A stretch of 64,000 nucleotides of DNA, taken from contig JAKOTR010000022.1 in the NCBI GenBank assembly GCA_029776225.1, forward strand, positions 186,001 through 250,000, given 5' to 3'. The position numbers were made by a program, and so were the translations under genes. Positions 8,481 to 16,945 of this stretch are shown one piece after another. Origin of the DNA: Acidobacteriota bacterium. Its GTDB lineage: Bacteria > Acidobacteriota > Terriglobia > Bryobacterales > Bryobacteraceae. How positions within the stretch are numbered: position 1 is the stretch's first letter; every line of letters starts with the position of its first letter. The notes below the pieces were generated by a model. That model was not told where the DNA came from. It ran no database searches and worked only from the letters and a program-made list of their open reading frames with translations.

Positions 8481-8505
8481 CTGCAAAAACCTTTGGGGAA
8501 TACGC

Positions 8506-8715
8506 CTACTTGGCCTTGCGCTGCTTCTGCTGGCCGACACGAACCTTGAAGTGCTGCTGCTTGGCTTCCTGGAAAGCCTTGTGATCGTGCCGCGCGACGG
8601 CGTCAGCCAGGTAAGCGTTCACGTCCGCTTCCTTCGGCACCACGGCCATCAGCGTGAAATTCTCGTTGCAGACCGGGCAAAAGGGCCGGAATCGCTTTAC
8701 ATTCGGAATCGCCAT
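8506..8715 (-). CDS. Small CxxC protein, function unknown
   Basis: This 69-aa cytosolic protein has one CPVC pair near the N-terminus (RFRPFCPVCNENFTLMAVVP) and a basic C-terminal tail rich in Lys and Gln (QHFKVRVGQQKQRKAK). One CxxC with two nearby His (ARHDHKAF) could hold a metal ion in a dimer or make a redox pair, but a complete zinc ribbon is not present. Codon use is like its neighbours and the frame is closed at both ends by intergenic sequence. I do not recognise a family. It is probably a real small gene because nothing else explains the interval and a hairpin follows it. Confidence 0.6.
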   Translation of the reverse strand: MAIPNVKRFRPFCPVCNENFTLMAVVPKEADVNAYLADAVARHDHKAFQEAKQQHFKVRVGQQKQRKAK

Positions 8716-8901
8716 ACTTTCATCATGCTAGCACGGGGGCGATCTGGCCGGCAGCCGGGGACGGCAGCCTCAATTACGCCTCCCCGAATCCCTCCGTAAG
8801 CGGCGCGTCTTTCGGGGAGACCGGCACAGCGCTGGAAGCATCCACGTGACTGCTAAGATCAGAGTCTGACCAAAACGGTGCTTCGCCAATAAGGAACTGA
8901 G

Positions 8902-9888
8902 ATGAACGCCGCCAGACACTCTCTCGTTCGCAAAAGACAGATCACCGGCGCGGTCCGGCTGGCCCTGATCCTGTTGCTGGCCGGCTTTGTGCCTGCCACC
9001 GGCGGCCCCATCCCCGTTATTCTCGATACCGACATCGGCGACGATATCGATGACGCGCTGGCGCTGGCTTTTGCGCTCCGGTCGCCGGAACTGGACGTTC
9101 GGGCGGTGATCACGGTCTTTCAGAACCGCGAAGGCCGCGCCGACCTGGCCTGGAGAATATTGAAGCGCTACGGCCGTACCGGCATTCTCATCGGCATGGG
9201 CGCCGAAAAGCCCCTGCTTGCGCCCCCGCGCACCGGGCCTGTGCTCCAGACCCAGTTTCCAACTCCGGATGAGCGCATGCCCGACTCCCAGCGCCGCAAC
9301 GGGATCCAATTGCTGATCGACACCTGCCTGAAGTCGCCCGGCAAGGTCACTGTGGTGGCCTACGGGCCGCTCACCAACATCGCTCTTGCGCTGCGGGCCG
9401 AGCCGCGCATCAAAGACAAGATCGAACACCTGGTCGTGATGAATGGCCGCTTCTTCAGTCCGGGGACCGAGTACAACACGACGTGCGACCCGGAGGCCGC
9501 CGCCATCGTATTCGATTCCGGTATTCCGATCACCGCGGTGGGCCTCGATGTCACCATGCAGTGCGAGCTCGAACCTGCGGACATGGCCCGGATGGAGCGC
9601 GCCGAAGGGCCGGCGAAGTTCATCCGCGACCTGGTGGATTTCTGGTACCGGGGGCATCCCGAGCCCAAGCACCGCCCCATCCTCCACGATCCCCTCGCCG
9701 TCGCAGTTGTGTTCCAGCCCGGCCTGATTCGCACCGAAACCGGCCGTGTGGTTGTGGAAACGCGCGGGCAGCCCGGCAGGACTTATGGCATGACGCTCTT
9801 TCGCCCGGACCCCAAGGGAACCACGCGTGTCGCCGCGGCGGTCGAAGCGCGGCGCTTCATGGACCTGTTCATGGATCGCGTTTTCTAA
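8902..9888 (+). CDS. Exported nucleoside hydrolase (IUNH family)
   Basis: The 328-aa product has a hydrophobic N-terminal signal (LALILLLAGFVPATG). It then shows the diagnostic nucleoside-hydrolase motif LDTDIGDDIDDALAL (from residue 41), whose Asp residues bind calcium and the ribose. VVMNGRFF, NTTCDPEAAAIVFDSG and ILHDPLAVAV (with the last Asp ligand) complete the active site. The family cleaves the N-glycosidic bond of ribonucleosides; here export implies scavenging of nucleosides outside the cytoplasm. AAGGA stands before the ATG at good spacing. The ORF ends in a 4-nt convergent overlap with the Yip1-like gene. Specificity (purine, pyrimidine or other glycoside) cannot be decided. Confidence 0.9.
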   Translation: MNAARHSLVRKRQITGAVRLALILLLAGFVPATGGPIPVILDTDIGDDIDDALALAFALRSPELDVRAVITVFQNREGRADLAWRILKRYGRTGILIGMGAEKPLLAPPRTGPVLQTQFPTPDERMPDSQRRNGIQLLIDTCLKSPGKVTVVAYGPLTNIALALRAEPRIKDKIEHLVVMNGRFFSPGTEYNTTCDPEAAAIVFDSGIPITAVGLDVTMQCELEPADMARMERAEGPAKFIRDLVDFWYRGHPEPKHRPILHDPLAVAVVFQPGLIRTETGRVVVETRGQPGRTYGMTLFRPDPKGTTRVAAAVEARRFMDLFMDRVF

Positions 9889-10583
9889 AACAGACTGGCA
9901 ATCCCGGCCTTGCCCAGCACGTAGACAACCCACGGAATGATCACGACGACCAGGCCCTTGGTCAGGCTCATTCCCACCGATACCTTGGAGATTCCCAGGC
10001 CGAGCAGAAAGATCAGCCAGAAGCTGAGCAGGTCCAGCGACGAGGCGATGCTGTAGAGCGCTTTGGAGACGGAAGCCCTGTCCATGAACAGCGTGGGATT
10101 GAGTTTGATCAGGTTTGTCATCTCCGCGCCGCTGGGATCGCCCATCATCAAGATGACGATGAGTCCGCCGGCGCCCGCCACCAGCCCGTAGGCGAACAAG
10201 GAATACGCGGTCACCGCCACAACCTTCTTGTAGGTTGTCCCGGCGCTGACGACATGGGCGAGCCCGAAAAACACTCCGGCGACGATAAGCGCCACTAGGG
10301 CCGAGGAAATGGGCGCCACGATGCAAGCGCGGACCCTCGCCGCGGGGGAATTCGCTTCCCTCGCCATTTGATCGATTCGCTCCTGCCCCAGTTGTTCCGC
10401 AATGCGCGGGCTGGATTCCAGCTGGGCCCGGAGAACAGCGCCCTGATCGACGAGGCTGGTGTTCGCGATGGTCATGACCAGCGTCAGCAGAATATAGGCG
10501 ATGAAAGGCAGGCGCCAGGAAGCCGTCTTGCCCACGGCGGCGAACAGTTCTTCCGGAGCGTAGAACACCTGCAAGAGTTTCAT
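9885..10583 (-). CDS. Yip1-family integral membrane protein
   Basis: The 232-aa product has five or six hydrophobic segments. They include PFIAYILLTLVMTIANTSL, ISSALVALIVAGVFFGLAHV, SLFAYGLVAGAGGLIVILMM, SFWLIFLLGLGIS and VVVIIPWVVYVLGKAGI. The N-terminal FYAPEELFAAV and the polar loop followed by a helix bundle are typical of bacterial Yip1/YIP1-like membrane proteins of unknown function. GGGAGGGTGAGCA before the ATG is a strong ribosome binding site. It is the third gene of the operon with the CBS/MgtE-N protein and the NRAMP-like transporter, 29 nt after the latter, which suggests a link with metal transport but does not prove one. Confidence 0.75.
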   Translation of the reverse strand: MKLLQVFYAPEELFAAVGKTASWRLPFIAYILLTLVMTIANTSLVDQGAVLRAQLESSPRIAEQLGQERIDQMAREANSPAARVRACIVAPISSALVALIVAGVFFGLAHVVSAGTTYKKVVAVTAYSLFAYGLVAGAGGLIVILMMGDPSGAEMTNLIKLNPTLFMDRASVSKALYSIASSLDLLSFWLIFLLGLGISKVSVGMSLTKGLVVVIIPWVVYVLGKAGIASLF

Positions 10584-10612
10584 TGCTCACCCTCCCGGGG
10601 GACCAGTATATG

Positions 10613-11860
10613 CTAGTAACCCATCCCGCGCAGGGTAATTCCCACCAGCGCAAGGGTCAGTCCGATCAAGACCGCCACCGATGTCCAGGCGACGAAATTG
10701 TAGAAGCGCGAGTTGGTCCACTTGCCCATCAGCTCCGGTTTATTGACCAGCAAAACCATGAAGATGAGCACGACAGGCAGCAGCACTCCGTTGAGCACCT
10801 GGGACCAGAGAATCATTCGGATGAGCGGGAAATCCGGAAGGAGCACCAGGCCCGCGCCGATGACAATCAGCAGCGTGTAGAGCCAGTAGAAGATCGGCGC
10901 TTCGCGGAAGCGCTTGTTCACGCCGGCTTCAAAACCCAGGCCCTCGCAGACCGAGTAGGCGGTGGAGAGCGGCAGAATCGAAGCGGCAAACAGCGATGCG
11001 TTGAACAGTCCAGCGCCGAACAGTATGTAGGCGTATTCTCCGAAAGGCCGCAGGGCAAGAGCGGCGTCGGCGGCGTCCTCAATTTCCCGCGGGCCGTGCG
11101 CCCAGATTCCCTGCGCGCAGGCGACGATGATGAAGAACGCGATGACCGCCATCGCGATGCAGCCGACCACCACCTCAACCCGTGATTCCTTGTACTCTTT
11201 CTCCGATACCCCTTTCTCGACTACGGCCGCCTGGAGGTAGAACATCATCCAGGGCGCGATCGATGTGCCCACCATTCCAATCAGCATGGCGAGATAGCCG
11301 GGGTGCAGCATCAACTGCGGGTGGATGCTGTTGATCAGGGCTTCCTTCCAGTCGGGTTCAATCATCAGCGCCGAGGCGATATAGGACACATAAACCACGC
11401 ACGCGCCGAGAAAGATTTTTTCCACGCTGCGGTAAGTCCCTCTCACTACGAGAAGCCAGACGGCCGCCGCGCCGAGCGGCACCGAAATATAGCGGCTGAC
11501 TCCGAACAGACTCAGCGAACTCGCAACGCCGGCGAAATTCGCCATCACGTTGGAGAGGTTCGTCAGCACCAGGAGCACCATCAGCAGGAAGGTTTTTCTG
11601 AGGCCGAATTCTTCCCGGATGAGGTCGGAGAGACCTTTGCCCGTGACGGCGCCCATGCGGGCGTTCATCTCCTGCGTCACAACCAGAAGGACGGTGATCG
11701 GCAGCAGCGTCCACAGGGGCAGGTAGCCGAACATCGCGCCGGCCTGCGAGTAGGTGAAGATTCCGCCGGCGTCGTTGTCGACCATTGCGGTGACAAAGCC
11801 CGGCCCGATCACCGCGAAAAACACCCCGATGTGGTATCGGAAACGCTTCAGGATCCTCAT
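10613..11860 (-). CDS. NRAMP-related divalent cation transporter, probably the magnesium-type (NRMT) branch
   Basis: The 415-aa product has about eleven membrane helices and the NRAMP/SLC11 fold. Canonical Mn/Fe transporters carry DPGN in helix 1 and a metal-selective Met (MPH) in helix 6. Here helix 1 has GPGFVTAMVDNDAGGI (DND at residues 28-30), and helix 6 has GTSIAPWMMFYLQ (198-210) with no MPH motif. This pattern is that of the NRAMP-related branch, members of which move Mg2+. The gene lies 6 nt after the soluble MgtE-N/CBS protein, itself a known Mg2+-sensing module, which supports magnesium. The family call is firm; the ion is inferred. Confidence 0.85.
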   Translation of the reverse strand: MRILKRFRYHIGVFFAVIGPGFVTAMVDNDAGGIFTYSQAGAMFGYLPLWTLLPITVLLVVTQEMNARMGAVTGKGLSDLIREEFGLRKTFLLMVLLVLTNLSNVMANFAGVASSLSLFGVSRYISVPLGAAAVWLLVVRGTYRSVEKIFLGACVVYVSYIASALMIEPDWKEALINSIHPQLMLHPGYLAMLIGMVGTSIAPWMMFYLQAAVVEKGVSEKEYKESRVEVVVGCIAMAVIAFFIIVACAQGIWAHGPREIEDAADAALALRPFGEYAYILFGAGLFNASLFAASILPLSTAYSVCEGLGFEAGVNKRFREAPIFYWLYTLLIVIGAGLVLLPDFPLIRMILWSQVLNGVLLPVVLIFMVLLVNKPELMGKWTNSRFYNFVAWTSVAVLIGLTLALVGITLRGMGY

Positions 11861-11866
11861 CGCCGC

Positions 11867-13105
11867 TCACTTCTGCCGCAAAACCGAGATGATGTCGTCC
11901 GCGGTGATGATTCCCACCAGGTTGTCCTCCTCATCCACCACAGGCAAGGTCAGGATGTTGTATTTGTCGAAGATTTCCGTGACGCGGTCCCGCTTTTCGC
12001 GGACGGTCACTTTGATGAGAGTGCCCGCTGCAAGCTCGGCGACCGGGGTCTCGCTGCCGGCCACGAAAAGCCGGCCTATCGGAACCGCTCCCGCCAGTTT
12101 ACCTTCCTCGTCCACCAAAAACAGGGTGTTCAGATTCTCCAGCAGATCCTCGGCGCCGCGGATCGCTTCCATGGCGTCGGCGACGGTGGCCCGCTGGTGC
12201 AGCGCGACGTACTCCGTGTTCATCATGCCGCCGGCGGTGTCCTCGTCGTACTCGAGCAACTCGCGGACCTCGGTCTTCGGCTCCACGTCCATCTCCCCCA
12301 GAATTCCCTCCGAGGTCTCCTCTTCCAGTTCGGCCAGCACGTCCGCCGCCTGATCCGGCGCCATCTCCTCTATGATTTCGGCAGCCTTCCCGGTCGCCAG
12401 GGATTCCAGAATGCTGGCTTGCATCCTCGGCTCCACCTCCGAGAGCGTCTCGGCTGCGACTTCGCTGTCGATGGCTTCGAAGATGGCTTCCCGCTCCTCG
12501 GGGGTGAGTACCTCGACAATGTCGGCGAGGTCGGCCGGGTGCAGGGCTTCCAGCTTCTGGTGAGAGATGTTGAGGCGCAGCCGCCTTTGCGGGTCGGGCT
12601 CGATGATGTCGCAAAACTCCCAGCGTATCGAGTTGGGCGCGATCGGCCGCTGGATCGCGCGGATCCATCGCCTGGGAACCCAGCCCTGAAGAAGGCGCCT
12701 GAGGAAGCTCCTCAGCCCGACATCGACTTCGAGCACCCGCAAAATCTCGTTCTCGGGCTCTCTGCGGATCTCGAAGGTGACATCGTTGACGCGGACCACC
12801 TTCCTCCCGTTCACGTCAATGATCTGCTGATCGAGCAGGTCCCGCGCAATGCGGAGCATGTACTCGTCCTCGTGATACGGGGTGAGGATCTCCTCTCGAA
12901 GGTGAACGCCGTCGAGGCTGATCGAACGGATCTGATCCCAGCGCACCGTGAGCCATGTCCACCCGCCGCCGACCAGGTAACGGTCGACCCGGACCGGGTC
13001 AATCAGCGGAACCAGGGCAGCGTCTTCGATCCGGCCAATCCGGCGGCCCTTGAGATCGTAGACCTTGAGACCGACGATTTCCGTGAAGTACAGGAAGTCC
13101 GCCAT
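11867..13105 (-). CDS. PRC-barrel / MgtE N-domain / CBS protein without a channel
   Basis: The 412-aa cytosolic product has PRC-barrel-like sequence (about 8-75 and a second repeat 88-130). The MgtE intracellular N domain follows (HPADLADIVEVL at 189-200 through about 285, with EDTAGGMM at 288-295). Last comes a CBS pair (about 296-410, ending DNLVGIITADDIISVL). In full-length MgtE these N and CBS domains bind Mg2+ and close the channel. The five-helix MgtE channel is entirely absent here, and the stop is followed 6 nt later by the NRAMP-like transporter. The protein is therefore probably a separate Mg2+ sensor or gate for that transporter. The intergenic 283 nt upstream contains no riboswitch that I can recognise. 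Confidence 0.88.
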   Translation of the reverse strand: MADFLYFTEIVGLKVYDLKGRRIGRIEDAALVPLIDPVRVDRYLVGGGWTWLTVRWDQIRSISLDGVHLREEILTPYHEDEYMLRIARDLLDQQIIDVNGRKVVRVNDVTFEIRREPENEILRVLEVDVGLRSFLRRLLQGWVPRRWIRAIQRPIAPNSIRWEFCDIIEPDPQRRLRLNISHQKLEALHPADLADIVEVLTPEEREAIFEAIDSEVAAETLSEVEPRMQASILESLATGKAAEIIEEMAPDQAADVLAELEEETSEGILGEMDVEPKTEVRELLEYDEDTAGGMMNTEYVALHQRATVADAMEAIRGAEDLLENLNTLFLVDEEGKLAGAVPIGRLFVAGSETPVAELAAGTLIKVTVREKRDRVTEIFDKYNILTLPVVDEEDNLVGIITADDIISVLRQK

Positions 13106-13388
13106 CGAAAACGTCCTGGCCCATTGGGCATCCAGAGCGCGCCACGGAGCGTTTTAGACGGCAATTTGGGTGCGCTCTACATGGGATTGAGACCCGCTAG
13201 GGTTCATTTCCACTATGGCGCATCGCACGCGCGCGCCGCAACAAAAATGATACCGGAGCAAGTGGAGGACCCGGGCTGGCCGGGTGCTTTCCGCTCCCGG
13301 AGCACGGGCGGCAGGCGAGCCGGCTAATCCGTGGCGTAGCAACCCGAGCGGGTTGAACCACCGCGCCTGGATATCTCCTCCGGGCTGC
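13106..13388. other. Intergenic leader region upstream of the magnesium operon
   Basis: These 283 nt separate the broken VWFA-related gene from the start of the CBS/MgtE-N gene and would contain its promoter and leader. I looked on the minus strand for an M-box or other ion riboswitch and saw no recognisable conserved core. No convincing promoter or small gene is visible. Confidence 0.4.
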
Positions 13389-14290
13389 CTAGCTGAGCTG
13401 CACCTTGACTGAGCGGAATCCACCCTTTCCCGCATAAGGGGGGCGCTTGAAAGACAGGACGTACTGGTTCCGCAGCCGGTCGAGCAGCGTGCTCAGCGTT
13501 GTCCGGCAAGCGCTCGCCGACACCTGCTCTCCCCCCGTGCGGTTGACAACCCACGCCATGCCCAGGGACGGAGCTGCGGGCGGCGTCCGGCTGCGAATTT
13601 CGGGCCGCGGCAAAGGCCACGGTAGCCCAATTACGTAGACGCTGCCCCCGACGTTGTCGAGAATCGCGTGATAGACGCCCGCATTGGCTTTGAGAACCTC
13701 CTGGGCGGCTTCGTCCGGCGTCAACTGCGAGCCTCTCTCCCGATCATTGGGAGAGACGACGATTGCCCGCCCGGTGCAGGCGTCCAGGAGCTGGAGCCTT
13801 TCTGCAGCCTTGGCCAGGGCGTCGAATACCGGCTGCCATGCACTGTGGACCATTGGCCGCGCCTTGTCTCCCGTGAGAAGGTCCAGAATAGGTTTGGGAT
13901 TGCTGATGAAGTCGCAGAGCCACTGGATGTCGCCGTAGTCGAGCCTCAGCAGCGCCACACGGTCATTCTCGCCCAGGCCGGAGAGGGCCTTGTTCAGATC
14001 GTTCCAGAAGGCGCGCTCGCGCACAACCAACAGCGAGCCTCTGTCGGCAACGAGTATGATTTGCAAAGCCCCAAGAGGCTCGCAGGCGGCGATCTCTACC
14101 GCTCTACCGTTGTCATAGAGTTATAAATCGGCACGCGAAACCCCCGAATCGGCTCGCCGCCGGGCCCGTTCGTCACAGCCGCTTCCAAAAAGATCATTTC
14201 CGCGCCGCACCGGCCGGCGATGGTTTCATCCGGCTGCTGCCCGAACGCACTCACCCAGGCCAAAAGGATGCATAATGTTGGAACGCGCAT
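13389..14290 (-). pseudogene. VWFA-related (TIGR03436-like) exported protein, frameshifted by an 8-bp tandem duplication
   Basis: An N-terminal piece starting at ATG 14290 (MRVPTLCILLAWVSAFGQQP, a signal peptide) runs to a stop at 14096. A longer piece in another frame (IILVADRGSLLVVRERAFW onward, to 13389) carries the rest of a von-Willebrand-A-like acidobacterial protein, ending with LRNQYVLSFKRPPYAG. At the junction CTCTACCG occurs twice in tandem (14094-14101 and 14102-14109). Removing one copy joins the two pieces in one frame of 298 codons, reading NSMTTVEIAACEPLGALQI. The gene is thus interrupted by a simple slip-strand event. It could be dead, a rare phase-variable state, or a sequencing/assembly error. 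Its family is exported and of unknown function. A GTG at 14308 is a less likely start. Confidence 0.75.
14094..14109 (-). repeat. 8-bp tandem duplication causing a frameshift
   Basis: Two adjacent perfect copies of CTCTACCG (plus strand) lie exactly where the VWFA-related reading frame breaks. The unit length is not a multiple of three, so gain or loss of one copy switches the frame off or on. Confidence 0.85.
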
Positions 14291-14403
14291 ATCACGCCCG
14301 CCTCGCACAGCAACGGACGCGTGCTCGCGTTCGGCGGTTGCACACCCGCGCGGGCTTGCGCTGTGTAATCAGGATTTGTGCCAAAATGTAGGTTCGTCCC
14401 ACC

Positions 14404-16173
14404 ATGAGTCATCCCGAATTCATCCCAACTGATACCGAGCGCGAACCGCGCATGCTTGCCGAGCCCGGCCCAGAGGCGCCGGCCGGTGAGACCGATGACG
14501 TCCAGGCGTCTTCCGCCTCTAATGGAGAGTCGTTTGGAGCCATTCTCTCCGAGTTCGAGGAGTCGCACCGGCGTGCCGCCGAAGGTCAGGGAGAGAGCCG
14601 CCAGGGAACGGTGGTCGCCATCTCCTCGGAGTTCGTCTTCGTCGATATCGGATTCAAAACCGAAGGCGTGATCCCGGTAGAGGAGTTCCGCGACGCGTCC
14701 GGCAACCTGGACGTCAAGCAAGGCGATCAGCTCGTAGTCTCCATAAAGGGGCGGAACGCCGACGGCTATTACCTGCTGTCTAAGATCAAGGTCGAGCGGC
14801 CGAAAGACTGGTCCTCCCTGGAAACTGCGTTCGCCGAAAAGCGGACCATTGCCGGGGTGGTCACGGGCGTCGTCAAGGGCGGGCTGTCGGTGGATGTCGG
14901 CGTGCGCGCGTTTCTGCCCGCATCGCGGAGCGGCGTGCGCGAGGCGGCCGCCCTCGAACAGTTGGTCGGCCAGGAAATCACCTGCAAGATCATCAAGCTC
15001 GACGTGACGAACGAGGACGTCGTAGTGGACCGCCGCGCGGTGCTCGAAGAGGAAGAGGCCAGGGCCCGCCAGGAGGCGTTCGACGCGCTTCAGGAAGGCG
15101 CCGTGGTCCGCGGCACGGTGCGGACGCTGACCGATTTCGGCGCGTTCATAGACTTGGGCGGCGTGGACGGCCTGTTGCACGTCAGCGACATGTCGTGGGG
15201 ACGCGTCGGCAAGCCTGCCGACGTGCTGGCGGTGGGCGATTCCATCGAAGTCAAGGTCCTCAAGATCGACCGGCAGAGCCGGCGTATTTCGCTGGGAACG
15301 AAGCAGCTCCAGCCCGACCCGTGGTCTCTGGCCGCCGAGAAGTACCCGGTGGGCCAGCGCGTGCACGGCAAGGTGACCCGGGTGGCGGACTTCGGCGCGT
15401 TCGTTGAACTCGAGCCCGGCGTGGAGGGCCTCATCCGGCTGATCGACCTCACGTGGTCGAAAAAGGCGGTGAAGCCGAAGGACGTCGTCAAGCCCGGCGA
15501 ACTGGTCGAGGTAGTGGTTCTGAACGTGAATGCCGCGGAGCGCCGCATCGGGCTCGGGCTGAAGCAGGCCCTTGGCGATCCCTGGGACGAAGCCGCGCAG
15601 AAATTCCCGGCCGGCGCCATCGTGGAGGGCAAGATCGTCAACATGGCCAAATTCGGCGCATTCGTCGAGCTGGCTGAGGGCGTCGAGGGCATGATCCACG
15701 TCGGCGACATCACCGCCGAGAAGCGGATCGATCATCCGCAGGACGTGCTCAAGATCGGGCAGACCGTGCGCGCCGTGGTGCTGGAATTCGATCGCGAAAA
15801 GCGCCGGATCCGCCTCGGAATGAAGCAGCTTCAGCCGACTACCGCCGACGAATATATCGCCGAGCACAAGGCCGGGGACATCGTGACGGGGCGTGTTGTC
15901 GCCGTCGGGAAGAAGCACGCCGAAGTGGAGCTGGGTGAAGGGCTGAAGGCCCTCTGCACGCTCCCCAAGGAGACGGGCGAGCCCCGGGAGCAGGCGGCTC
16001 CGGCGAGCGTGGACGTGTCCTCGCTTTCCGCGATGCTGGCGGCCAAGTGGAAGCACGGCAAGACATTAAACGCCTCGCCGTCCGTGGAGCCGGTGCGGCA
16101 GGGACAGGTCCGGAGCTTCCGCATCACCGGGCTCGACCCCGCCCAAAAGCGCATCGAACTCGAACTCGCCTGA
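14404..16173 (+). CDS. rpsA: 30S ribosomal protein S1
   Basis: The 589-aa product contains a chain of S1 (OB-fold) RNA-binding domains at about residues 62-125, 145-215, 230-302, 317-390, 404-475 and a degenerate sixth near 490-560. Domains 3 to 5 show the classic pattern, for example DFGAFIDLGGVDGLLHVSDM, DFGAFVELEPGVEGLI and KFGAFVELAEGVEGMIHVGD. S1 binds mRNA leaders and delivers them to the 30S subunit. The N-terminal ~45 residues are acidic, Pro/Glu rich and poorly conserved. Domain number and length match bacterial S1 proteins. No cmk gene lies upstream, as it often does elsewhere; instead the broken VWFA-related gene is divergent. Confidence 0.92.
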   Translation: MSHPEFIPTDTEREPRMLAEPGPEAPAGETDDVQASSASNGESFGAILSEFEESHRRAAEGQGESRQGTVVAISSEFVFVDIGFKTEGVIPVEEFRDASGNLDVKQGDQLVVSIKGRNADGYYLLSKIKVERPKDWSSLETAFAEKRTIAGVVTGVVKGGLSVDVGVRAFLPASRSGVREAAALEQLVGQEITCKIIKLDVTNEDVVVDRRAVLEEEEARARQEAFDALQEGAVVRGTVRTLTDFGAFIDLGGVDGLLHVSDMSWGRVGKPADVLAVGDSIEVKVLKIDRQSRRISLGTKQLQPDPWSLAAEKYPVGQRVHGKVTRVADFGAFVELEPGVEGLIRLIDLTWSKKAVKPKDVVKPGELVEVVVLNVNAAERRIGLGLKQALGDPWDEAAQKFPAGAIVEGKIVNMAKFGAFVELAEGVEGMIHVGDITAEKRIDHPQDVLKIGQTVRAVVLEFDREKRRIRLGMKQLQPTTADEYIAEHKAGDIVTGRVVAVGKKHAEVELGEGLKALCTLPKETGEPREQAAPASVDVSSLSAMLAAKWKHGKTLNASPSVEPVRQGQVRSFRITGLDPAQKRIELELA

Positions 16174-16318
16174 CCGGCTGCCGCTCCGGCGGCGCACTGT
16201 CGGGAATTGCATCATAGCGTTGCAAACAGCCGCACACGGGAAGTCCCCGGTGTGCGCCTGCGCGTTGTTCCGCCTTAAGAAACGGATTGGCCCGCGAGTT
16301 GCTTCGCCCGTGCTCCGA

Positions 16319-16945
16319 ATGAGCACAACGTCTTGCGCAGCAACGCTTTCCGATGAGCGCCTCATCGAGAGAGTGCGGGCGGGAGAGAAGGCCGTCTACG
16401 GCGTCCTGATGAACCGCCATAGCCGGCGCCTGCACTCGGTGGCGAACCGGATCCTGCAGTGTCAGGCCGAAGCCGAGGATGCCGTGCAGGAGGCCCATCT
16501 GCAGGTACTCGCGCGCCTCGACCAGTTTGCGGGCCGCTCCAGCTTTCTCACCTGGCTCACCAGGATCGTCATCAACGAAGCCTTGATGCGGCTGCGCGCC
16601 CGCCGGCCTTCGGTAGCGCTCGATCACCCTTCGCCGGACGGCGGCGCGAGTATGGTTCTGATTTCACATTCCCTGGACCCCGAACAAGAGGCGTTACGGA
16701 AAGAGTTGGGCAGAGTGCTCCGGTCCGCTCTGAAAGCCCTCCCGGAGAAGTACCGCGTTGTATTCTGCATGCGGGAAATCGATGGAATCGACCTGCAAAC
16801 CATCGCCGCGAAGCTGAATCTCAGCCACGAGTGCGTAAAGACACGGTTGTACCGAGCCAGGTTCCTGCTTCGCAGGCGGCTCCGCCGGCGCTTGAAACCA
16901 GCCCGGCTGCCCGCCGGCGCGCTGCGAATCCATCCGGCGGTTTGA
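16319..16945 (+). CDS. ECF-type RNA polymerase sigma factor
   Basis: The 208-aa product has sigma region 2 (about residues 15-85: LIERVRAGEKAVYGVLMNRH, AEAEDAVQEAHLQVL, SFLTWLTRIVINEALMRLR). After a linker comes region 4 (about 140-190: LKALPEKYRVVFCMREIDG, and the helix-turn-helix LQTIAAKLNLSHECVKTRLY). Regions 1 and 3 are missing, as in extracytoplasmic-function sigmas. The frame extends 33 codons upstream, but ATG 16319 starts just before region 2 and was preferred. The C-terminus is unusually Arg rich. No anti-sigma gene is adjacent; rpsA precedes it and an M48 protease follows. The signal it answers to is unknown. Confidence 0.88.
   Translation: MSTTSCAATLSDERLIERVRAGEKAVYGVLMNRHSRRLHSVANRILQCQAEAEDAVQEAHLQVLARLDQFAGRSSFLTWLTRIVINEALMRLRARRPSVALDHPSPDGGASMVLISHSLDPEQEALRKELGRVLRSALKALPEKYRVVFCMREIDGIDLQTIAAKLNLSHECVKTRLYRARFLLRRRLRRRLKPARLPAGALRIHPAV

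Follow-up and report, generated by a model that had tools for sequence, protein, structure and literature searches.

A detached MgtE-type sensor encoded next to an NRAMP-related magnesium transporter in an acidobacterium

The window considered here is a stretch of 64,000 nt (positions 186,001 to 250,000 of contig JAKOTR010000022.1, assembly GCA_029776225.1) from a soil bacterium of the family Bryobacteraceae, Acidobacteriota, whose genome amounts to 5.18 Mb and is 97.7% complete. On its reverse strand lies the gene for a protein of 412 residues (11867..13105), here called the sensor, which resembles the cytosolic part of the Mg2+ channel MgtE; 6 nt separate its TGA from the ATG of a gene for a transporter of 415 residues (10613..11860), assigned below to the NRAMP-related magnesium transporters (NRMT). 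The translations of these two open reading frames (ORFs), and of a Yip1-like one that follows them, were searched with Pfam profiles. A preliminary description of the locus had already placed the sensor and an NRAMP-family transporter at these positions, and had read the former as a cytosolic protein with the MgtE N and CBS domains but no channel; both statements agree with what is found here.

The transporter matches the Pfam family Nramp with 311 bits. Its best solved relative is EleNRMT of Eggerthella lenta (7qia; phmmer E=2e-109, 369.5 bits, 46% identity), while the other NRAMP structures reach at most 79.8 bits (E from 1.9e-21). According to the accessible passages of PMC8806188, the ion site of NRMTs has the signature DxxG-TxxA/T, as opposed to DxxN-A/CxxM in NRAMPs specific for Mn/Fe. 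Both halves of the NRMT signature are present in the window: helix 1 reads DNDAGG (residues 28-33, 11762..11779, reverse strand), which contains DAGG, and helix 6 reads GTSIAPWMM (residues 198-206, 11243..11269, reverse strand), which contains TSIA; the two motifs, singled out in the preliminary description, align with GNDAGG and GTTIAPWMM of EleNRMT. The first histidine of helix 6b, whose loss is also a mark of NRMTs, is replaced by tryptophan in both proteins. They differ in helix 3, where Glu133 of EleNRMT corresponds to an asparagine (residue 108); this asparagine is found in 18 of the 25 loci with more than 65% identity to the window NRMT, and glutamate in 58 of 62 more distant matches. 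In a FastTree phylogeny of 35 proteins the transporter groups with EleNRMT and an NRMT from an Alicyclobacillus plasmid, apart from MntH, with a local support of 0.94. Its closest named relatives stem from records titled Bryobacterales or Bryobacteraceae, Acidobacteriota (up to 78% identity among the matches listed); the NRMTs of Granulicella, Terriglobus and Edaphobacter are 58-59% identical to it, that of the Alicyclobacillus plasmid 51%. Judged by these sequence features, the transporter is almost certainly an NRMT. EleNRMT carries Mg2+ and Mn2+ and is not coupled to H+ (PMC8806188, accessible passages); by analogy, the window NRMT may likewise work without proton coupling, and Mg2+ is probably its main physiological substrate.

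In the sensor, Pfam recognizes MgtE_N (residues 188-289, 96 bits), CBS (52 bits, in two stretches) and PRC (residues 3-28, 35.5 bits). The transmembrane channel domain of MgtE (PF01769) is absent from the protein and is not found above cut-off in the genome, therefore the sensor is not an MgtE. MgtE_N and CBS are matched in all of 44 aligned sensor sequences and PRC in 37 of them. On the reverse strand, a first PRC barrel occupies residues 1-80 (12866..13105), as indicated by the Pfam match, the predicted structure and a fold search; a second barrel with an inserted helical hairpin is predicted for residues 84-178 or thereabouts (12572..12856). In the window sensor the second barrel is invisible to Pfam and is read from alignments, the predicted fold and a single structural match, to 8qzo over residues 3-169; it is the most conserved part of the N-terminal half, with D89, L91, D92, Q94, D97, K102-V106 and D108 invariant in the 44 sequences. 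Residues 1-183 are modelled with a mean local confidence (pLDDT) of 89.6, and their best solved match is the tandem PRC pair CdpB1/CdpB2 of Archaeoglobus (8qzo; Z 12.2, 127 residues aligned, root-mean-square deviation (rmsd) 2.7; Foldseek E 1.7e-5), which shares the fold of the first 170 residues at 14% identity, a likeness that does not imply a like role. In the model, then, the N-terminal half of the sensor is a tandem PRC barrel.

The C-terminal half consists of an MgtE N domain (residues 188-289, 12239..12544), assigned by Pfam and by phmmer to 2yvx/2yvy, and a CBS pair (residues 291-411, 11873..12235), both on the reverse strand; in the model, the part from about residue 183 to 412 superposes on Mg2+-bound MgtE (2yvy) with a Z of 23.1 and an rmsd of 2.2 over 239 residues. 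The full-length model has a mean pLDDT of 85.3 and a predicted TM-score (pTM) of 0.49, a low value, so that it does not fix the PRC half relative to the sensor half.

The Mg2+ sites were mapped onto MgtE of T. thermophilus, using the site names of PMC5882242 and those sites whose residues are named in its accessible passages, that is, sites other than Mg2 and Mg3. E59 (Mg7), D91 (Mg4) and D95 (Mg6) correspond to E219, D251 and D255 in the N domain of the sensor, and D247 (Mg4) to D404 in the CBS pair, whereas the Mg5 residues D226 and D250 are replaced by N383 and S407. Among 76 sensor sequences, from the window and from acidobacterial and plasmid loci, the E59 position holds E or D in 68 and the D95 position D in 74; at the Mg5 positions D226 and D250, D occurs in three sequences each. 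The sensor stops at residue 412, inside the first turns of the equivalent of the MgtE plug helix (MgtE 246-263). Compared with the MgtE channel (2yvx/2zy9), it has the N and CBS domains with the Mg4, Mg6 and Mg7 residues, lacks the channel, the full plug helix and the Mg5 residues, and adds the tandem PRC barrel in front. As far as can be judged from the residues, it appears to keep mostly the part that closes the N domain onto the CBS pair and to have lost the link to the channel, a pattern as would be expected of a switch with a new output.

The distribution of the two genes was followed in 80 genomes sampled evenly across the phylum, with a threshold of E<=1e-60 for NRMT, and of E<=1e-20 together with reach into the PRC half for the sensor. 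NRMT is present in 21 genomes; each of these also has the sensor, which was found in none of the 59 without NRMT (Fisher p 1e-19, a value that is not corrected for ancestry). In two of the 21 (G061 and G072) the sensor match starts at residue 75-76, where the ORFs at the locus cover residues 10-412 and 2-408. The sensor query is matched only from residue 167 on, like ordinary MgtE, in 47 of the 59 genomes without NRMT, and not at all in 12. The two genes are at most 1.3 kb apart in 17 of the 21 genomes and distant or on separate contigs in four (G007, G038, G061, G073); the association is therefore kept in unlinked pairs. Two gene orders occur in the phylum: sensor before NRMT, as in the window, and NRMT before sensor, in a type 32-36% identical to the window's. 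The families f4 and f25 each include some genomes with both genes alongside one that has neither.

A second sample consisted of the 80 best named NRMT loci out of at least 583, the species of which may overlap with the phylum sample. The sensor lies in the available flank at 57 of them (50 full, seven partial), and is found elsewhere in the genome for 21 of the remaining 23; these 21 include one fragment at a contig edge, one sensor split into two frames and one match that starts at residue 64. Among cultured acidobacteria, Granulicella rosea and Terriglobus roseus have the sensor near NRMT, and Edaphobacter modestus has it elsewhere. The split sensor consists of two overlapping frames (contig C41 of genome G096, which harbours locus L153), as does that of locus L114; the MgtE-like gene in the Ca_c0685 operon of C. 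acetobutylicum is split likewise (PMC4072509, accessible passages). A natural fusion of sensor and NRMT was not found in 27 related loci and 88 further ones; overlapping long frames, for instance at L112, differ in reading frame.

The survey suggests that the two proteins work as one machine, and that they are functional partners is very probable. Two elements stand of the proposal in the preliminary description, that a magnesium sensor from one transporter family controls a transporter of another: an NRMT is paired with a detached MgtE sensor, and the two are linked functionally far beyond chance. Physical gating, and Mg2+ as the substrate, are its putative part.

The genomes with NRMT differ from the others also in their remaining Mg2+ transporters. 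The MgtE channel domain occurs in three of the 21 (in G032 as a weak match of 71 bits) as compared with 49 of the 59 genomes without NRMT (p 3e-8). CorA was searched in all 80 genomes, with a partial match in G002 taken as a hit; neither MgtE nor CorA is present in eight of the 21, the window's genome being one of them, and in three of the 59 (p 7e-4), of which one is only 77% complete. In the window's genome neither an MgtE channel nor CorA nor an MgtA-type ATPase was found above cut-off, and the sole match to MgtE_N is the window sensor. A frame of 944 residues that matches MgtA in two stretches (223 and 214 bits, cut-off 610.75) was read as another P-type ATPase; in none of the 11 genomes searched does MgtA pass its cut-off. 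The genome further encodes a CNNM/CorC protein (156 bits) and has two matches to the MgtC domain, one of them with stops. CNNM/CorC relatives of S. aureus are reportedly Mg2+ exporters, and for this reason the protein was, in our judgement, not counted as an importer. The simplest reading is that regulated entry of Mg2+, otherwise the task of MgtE, falls to NRMT with its sensor. The window's genome also encodes a canonical MntH-Usp protein with DPGN and MPH motifs, a fusion of classical MntH with a universal stress protein (Usp) domain (L082:4305-6200; contig C62 of the same genome); a third NRAMP-like protein shows the motif DNDPSAIG.

The pair is also found outside the phylum. All nine plasmid records that match NRMT at E<=1e-30 were opened, two of them reached through the sensor search; of the 83 records that match the sensor seven were opened, and as picking by the sensor biases them, counts from these plasmids are to be read with that bias. 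Genes with the NRMT signature adjoin a sensor-like gene on plasmids of Alicyclobacillus, Citrobacter, Arthrobacter, Cellulomonas, Leifsonia and Mycolicibacterium; four further matches carry the DDDPS signature and no sensor, and one shows neither motif. The plasmid-borne sensor-like proteins match the query over residues 5-409 (Alicyclobacillus), 5-408, 15-406, 81-406, 79-409 and 162-406 (Leifsonia). An M-box riboswitch (RF00380) precedes the pair in three of the five plasmid loci scanned, those of Alicyclobacillus (145 bits), Leifsonia and Arthrobacter, members of the Bacillota and Actinomycetota. The NRMTs of the Actinomycetota and Citrobacter plasmids are of a more distant type, 29-33% identical to the window's.

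On Citrobacter pPSV (L165) and Cellulomonas p110066 (L167), NRMT and sensor have genes for an ArsR regulator and a heavy-metal P-type ATPase as neighbours; one may speculate that these pairs provide an Mg2+ entry less open to toxic metals, which travels with metal resistance. NRMT-signature genes with no sensor close by lie near cadR/CDF genes in A. caldus (L171) and near a metal/formaldehyde-sensitive repressor in Acidiphilium (L174). On a Tsukamurella plasmid (L170, 3461-5274), the gene for a CBS protein that matches residues 185-409 of the sensor query overlaps at its end with the next gene, which encodes a membrane protein of DUF1003; detached sensors of the MgtE type may thus have DUF1003 proteins as another partner. 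Four contigs are titled Bifidobacterium breve, Rhodanobacteraceae or Nitrospirae (L121, L129, L159, L161) and have NRMTs 57-63% identical to the window's; they are probably mislabelled or misbinned acidobacterial contigs.

In the trees of both proteins, Alicyclobacillus is the sister of one acidobacterium (G062) and Citrobacter that of another (G072), and with such sisters across phyla the pairs appear to move together. The mirror-tree correlation of sensor and NRMT is 0.78 for 28 pairs and 0.76 for 17 pairs, values reached in none of 2000 permutations; as shared descent alone would give the same correlation, the comparison was used only for the cross-phylum sisters. At their deep nodes the two trees disagree.

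The gene that follows NRMT after 29 nt (9885-10583, reverse strand) encodes a membrane protein with a Yip1 domain (Pfam 39 bits; YknW is also resembled, below cut-off) in an apparent operon with the pair; promoter-like sites were not found in 9700-13700, where 0.9 would be expected. The preliminary description had taken this protein for a third partner. The ORF is real, and the neighbourhood is not conserved: blastp at E<=1e-3 gave no relative in the 27 or 88 related loci, several contigs of which end early, and nine ORFs, selected from a list of those 3′ of NRMT in loci of Bryobacterales, do not match Yip1 in Pfam; the idea of a third partner was therefore rejected. These nine belong to DUF5995, to histidine-kinase-like proteins (two, one below cut-off), PP2C (two), a sugar-binding kinase, a carboxyltransferase and ABC-2 (on the opposite strand), or to no family.

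The pairing as such, and the type of gene pair, have been known since 2014, when Shin et al. noted that most nrmT genes adjoin a homolog of the N-terminal cytoplasmic domain of MgtE and proposed that the MgtE-like protein acts in feedback regulation or as a chaperone (PMC4072509, here and below in its accessible passages). The window pair shows no difference in kind from their NrmT/MgtE-like operons; in Acidobacterium capsulatum, of the same phylum, the MgtE-like gene likewise lies directly upstream of nrmT, with no riboswitch. Given this gene order, and given that the Granulicella, Terriglobus and Edaphobacter proteins are 58-59% identical to the window NRMT, the A. capsulatum protein Acp2977 likely belongs to the branch of the window NRMT. 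The main text of PMC4072509 contains no hit for "PRC", and no later test of feedback control by the MgtE-like partner was found in a literature search, from which subscription journals were mostly out of reach. As far as this search shows, four things are added here: the PRC tandem, the pattern of kept and lost sites, a co-occurrence that is close to obligate, and its connection with the loss of MgtE.

The reading favoured here, with a probability of about 0.58, is that an uncoupled Mg2+ carrier is braked by a detached Mg2+-sensing subunit and that the two form one Mg2+ uptake unit. NRMT would admit hydrated Mg2+, and probably Mn2+ too, down the electrochemical gradient without coupling to protons; since thermodynamics would not halt a carrier of this sort at a useful cytosolic concentration, a brake would be needed. 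Cytosolic Mg2+ would fill sites of the Mg4, Mg6 and Mg7 type, whereupon the N and CBS domains of the sensor, which presumably binds Mg2+, would close on each other as in MgtE. Because the plug helix and the channel are gone, the closed sensor would have to act via a different surface; the likeliest candidate is its tandem PRC barrel, which would dock to NRMT on the cytosolic side. Both the direct docking and its inhibitory sign we infer; that the sensor is a direct, Mg2+-dependent brake on NRMT seems on balance the somewhat better bet.

A number of observations weigh against this reading. D is found at the two Mg4 positions in only 49 (D91) and 59 (D247) of the 76 sensors. No sensor was found in two of the genomes behind the 80 named NRMT loci (G087 and G102), nor within 3-4 kb on each side of the NRMT-signature genes on the plasmids of A. 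caldus and Acidiphilium, and the Tsukamurella relative of the sensor adjoins DUF1003, not NRMT. The M-box was found neither in the window (8500-16500, E up to 5) nor in the 20 acidobacterial loci scanned, nor in the plasmid loci of Citrobacter and Cellulomonas. A CNNM protein is encoded in seven of the eight genomes without MgtE and CorA, hence other Mg2+ routes may exist; and since at E<=1e-60 a relative of the MntH in the window's genome is missing from 11 of the 21 genomes with NRMT, the transporter may have a role in Mn2+ uptake there. To these come the results obtained in B. subtilis (PMC4072509): NrmT of A. capsulatum fully rescued a mutant in Mn2+ transport and relieved Mg2+ deficiency only at low millimolar Mg2+; coexpression of its MgtE-like gene did not improve the Mg2+ rescue; and the NrmTs of C. 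acetobutylicum and A. capsulatum work without the MgtE-like gene, the sensor thus not being required for transport.

The A. capsulatum result is the reason why manganese is the main rival: the acidobacterial NRMT would mainly import Mn2+, and the sensor would respond to Mn2+ or to the balance of Mg2+ and Mn2+. The transport of Mn2+ by EleNRMT, the missing M-box in the window and the NRMT genomes without the window-type MntH fit this version. However, most genomes with NRMT are without the MgtE channel, eight of the 21 without CorA as well, and some other protein must therefore import Mg2+ there; relatives of MntH are commoner with NRMT (10 of 21 genomes) than without it (five of 59; p 3e-4), the reverse of what substitution would give; and the Alicyclobacillus pair, with its 51% identical NRMT, stands behind an M-box. 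Further, the rescue tests used micromolar Mn2+ and millimolar Mg2+ (PMC4072509), and in our judgement do not rank the substrates for that reason. A primary role in Mn2+ uptake is accordingly regarded as unlikely.

Should the sensor be an activator or assembly factor of NRMT instead of a brake, the near-obligate co-occurrence even of unlinked pairs would be well accounted for, but the activity of the two NrmTs in B. subtilis without it, the unimproved rescue upon coexpression, and the transport by EleNRMT expressed and purified alone (PMC8806188, accessible passages) make this improbable. The same coexpression result does not speak against a brake, as it asked for improved rescue of an Mg2+ defect, a situation in which a brake would be off. 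It is also conceivable that the sensor acts elsewhere: it might buffer Mg2+, serve as a chaperone, or bind a transcription factor or a membrane protein other than NRMT. Chaperone activity was offered as an alternative by Shin et al. (PMC4072509), and the DUF1003 neighbour in Tsukamurella points the same way. PRC barrels are general docking domains, which would suit such a role too. Yet the sensor is absent from all 59 phylum genomes without NRMT, and its adjacency to NRMT is kept in both gene orders; an action away from NRMT has, in our estimate, little chance of being the explanation.

In the brake model the sensor would be a "split MgtE": the cytosolic Mg2+ switch of MgtE would have been separated from the channel and have gained a tandem PRC module for docking, and it would now inhibit in trans, as an almost obligate subunit, an unrelated carrier of the LeuT fold, so that one allosteric sensor serves at least two unrelated transport folds and perhaps, with DUF1003, a third partner. 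The odds of this wider picture are about even. A brake of this kind would answer the question of how uncoupled Mg2+ importers of the NRAMP type avoid overfilling the cell, and the co-occurrence of unlinked genes, the loss of MgtE and the pattern of kept and lost sites turn the speculation of 2014 into a two-protein model that can be tested.

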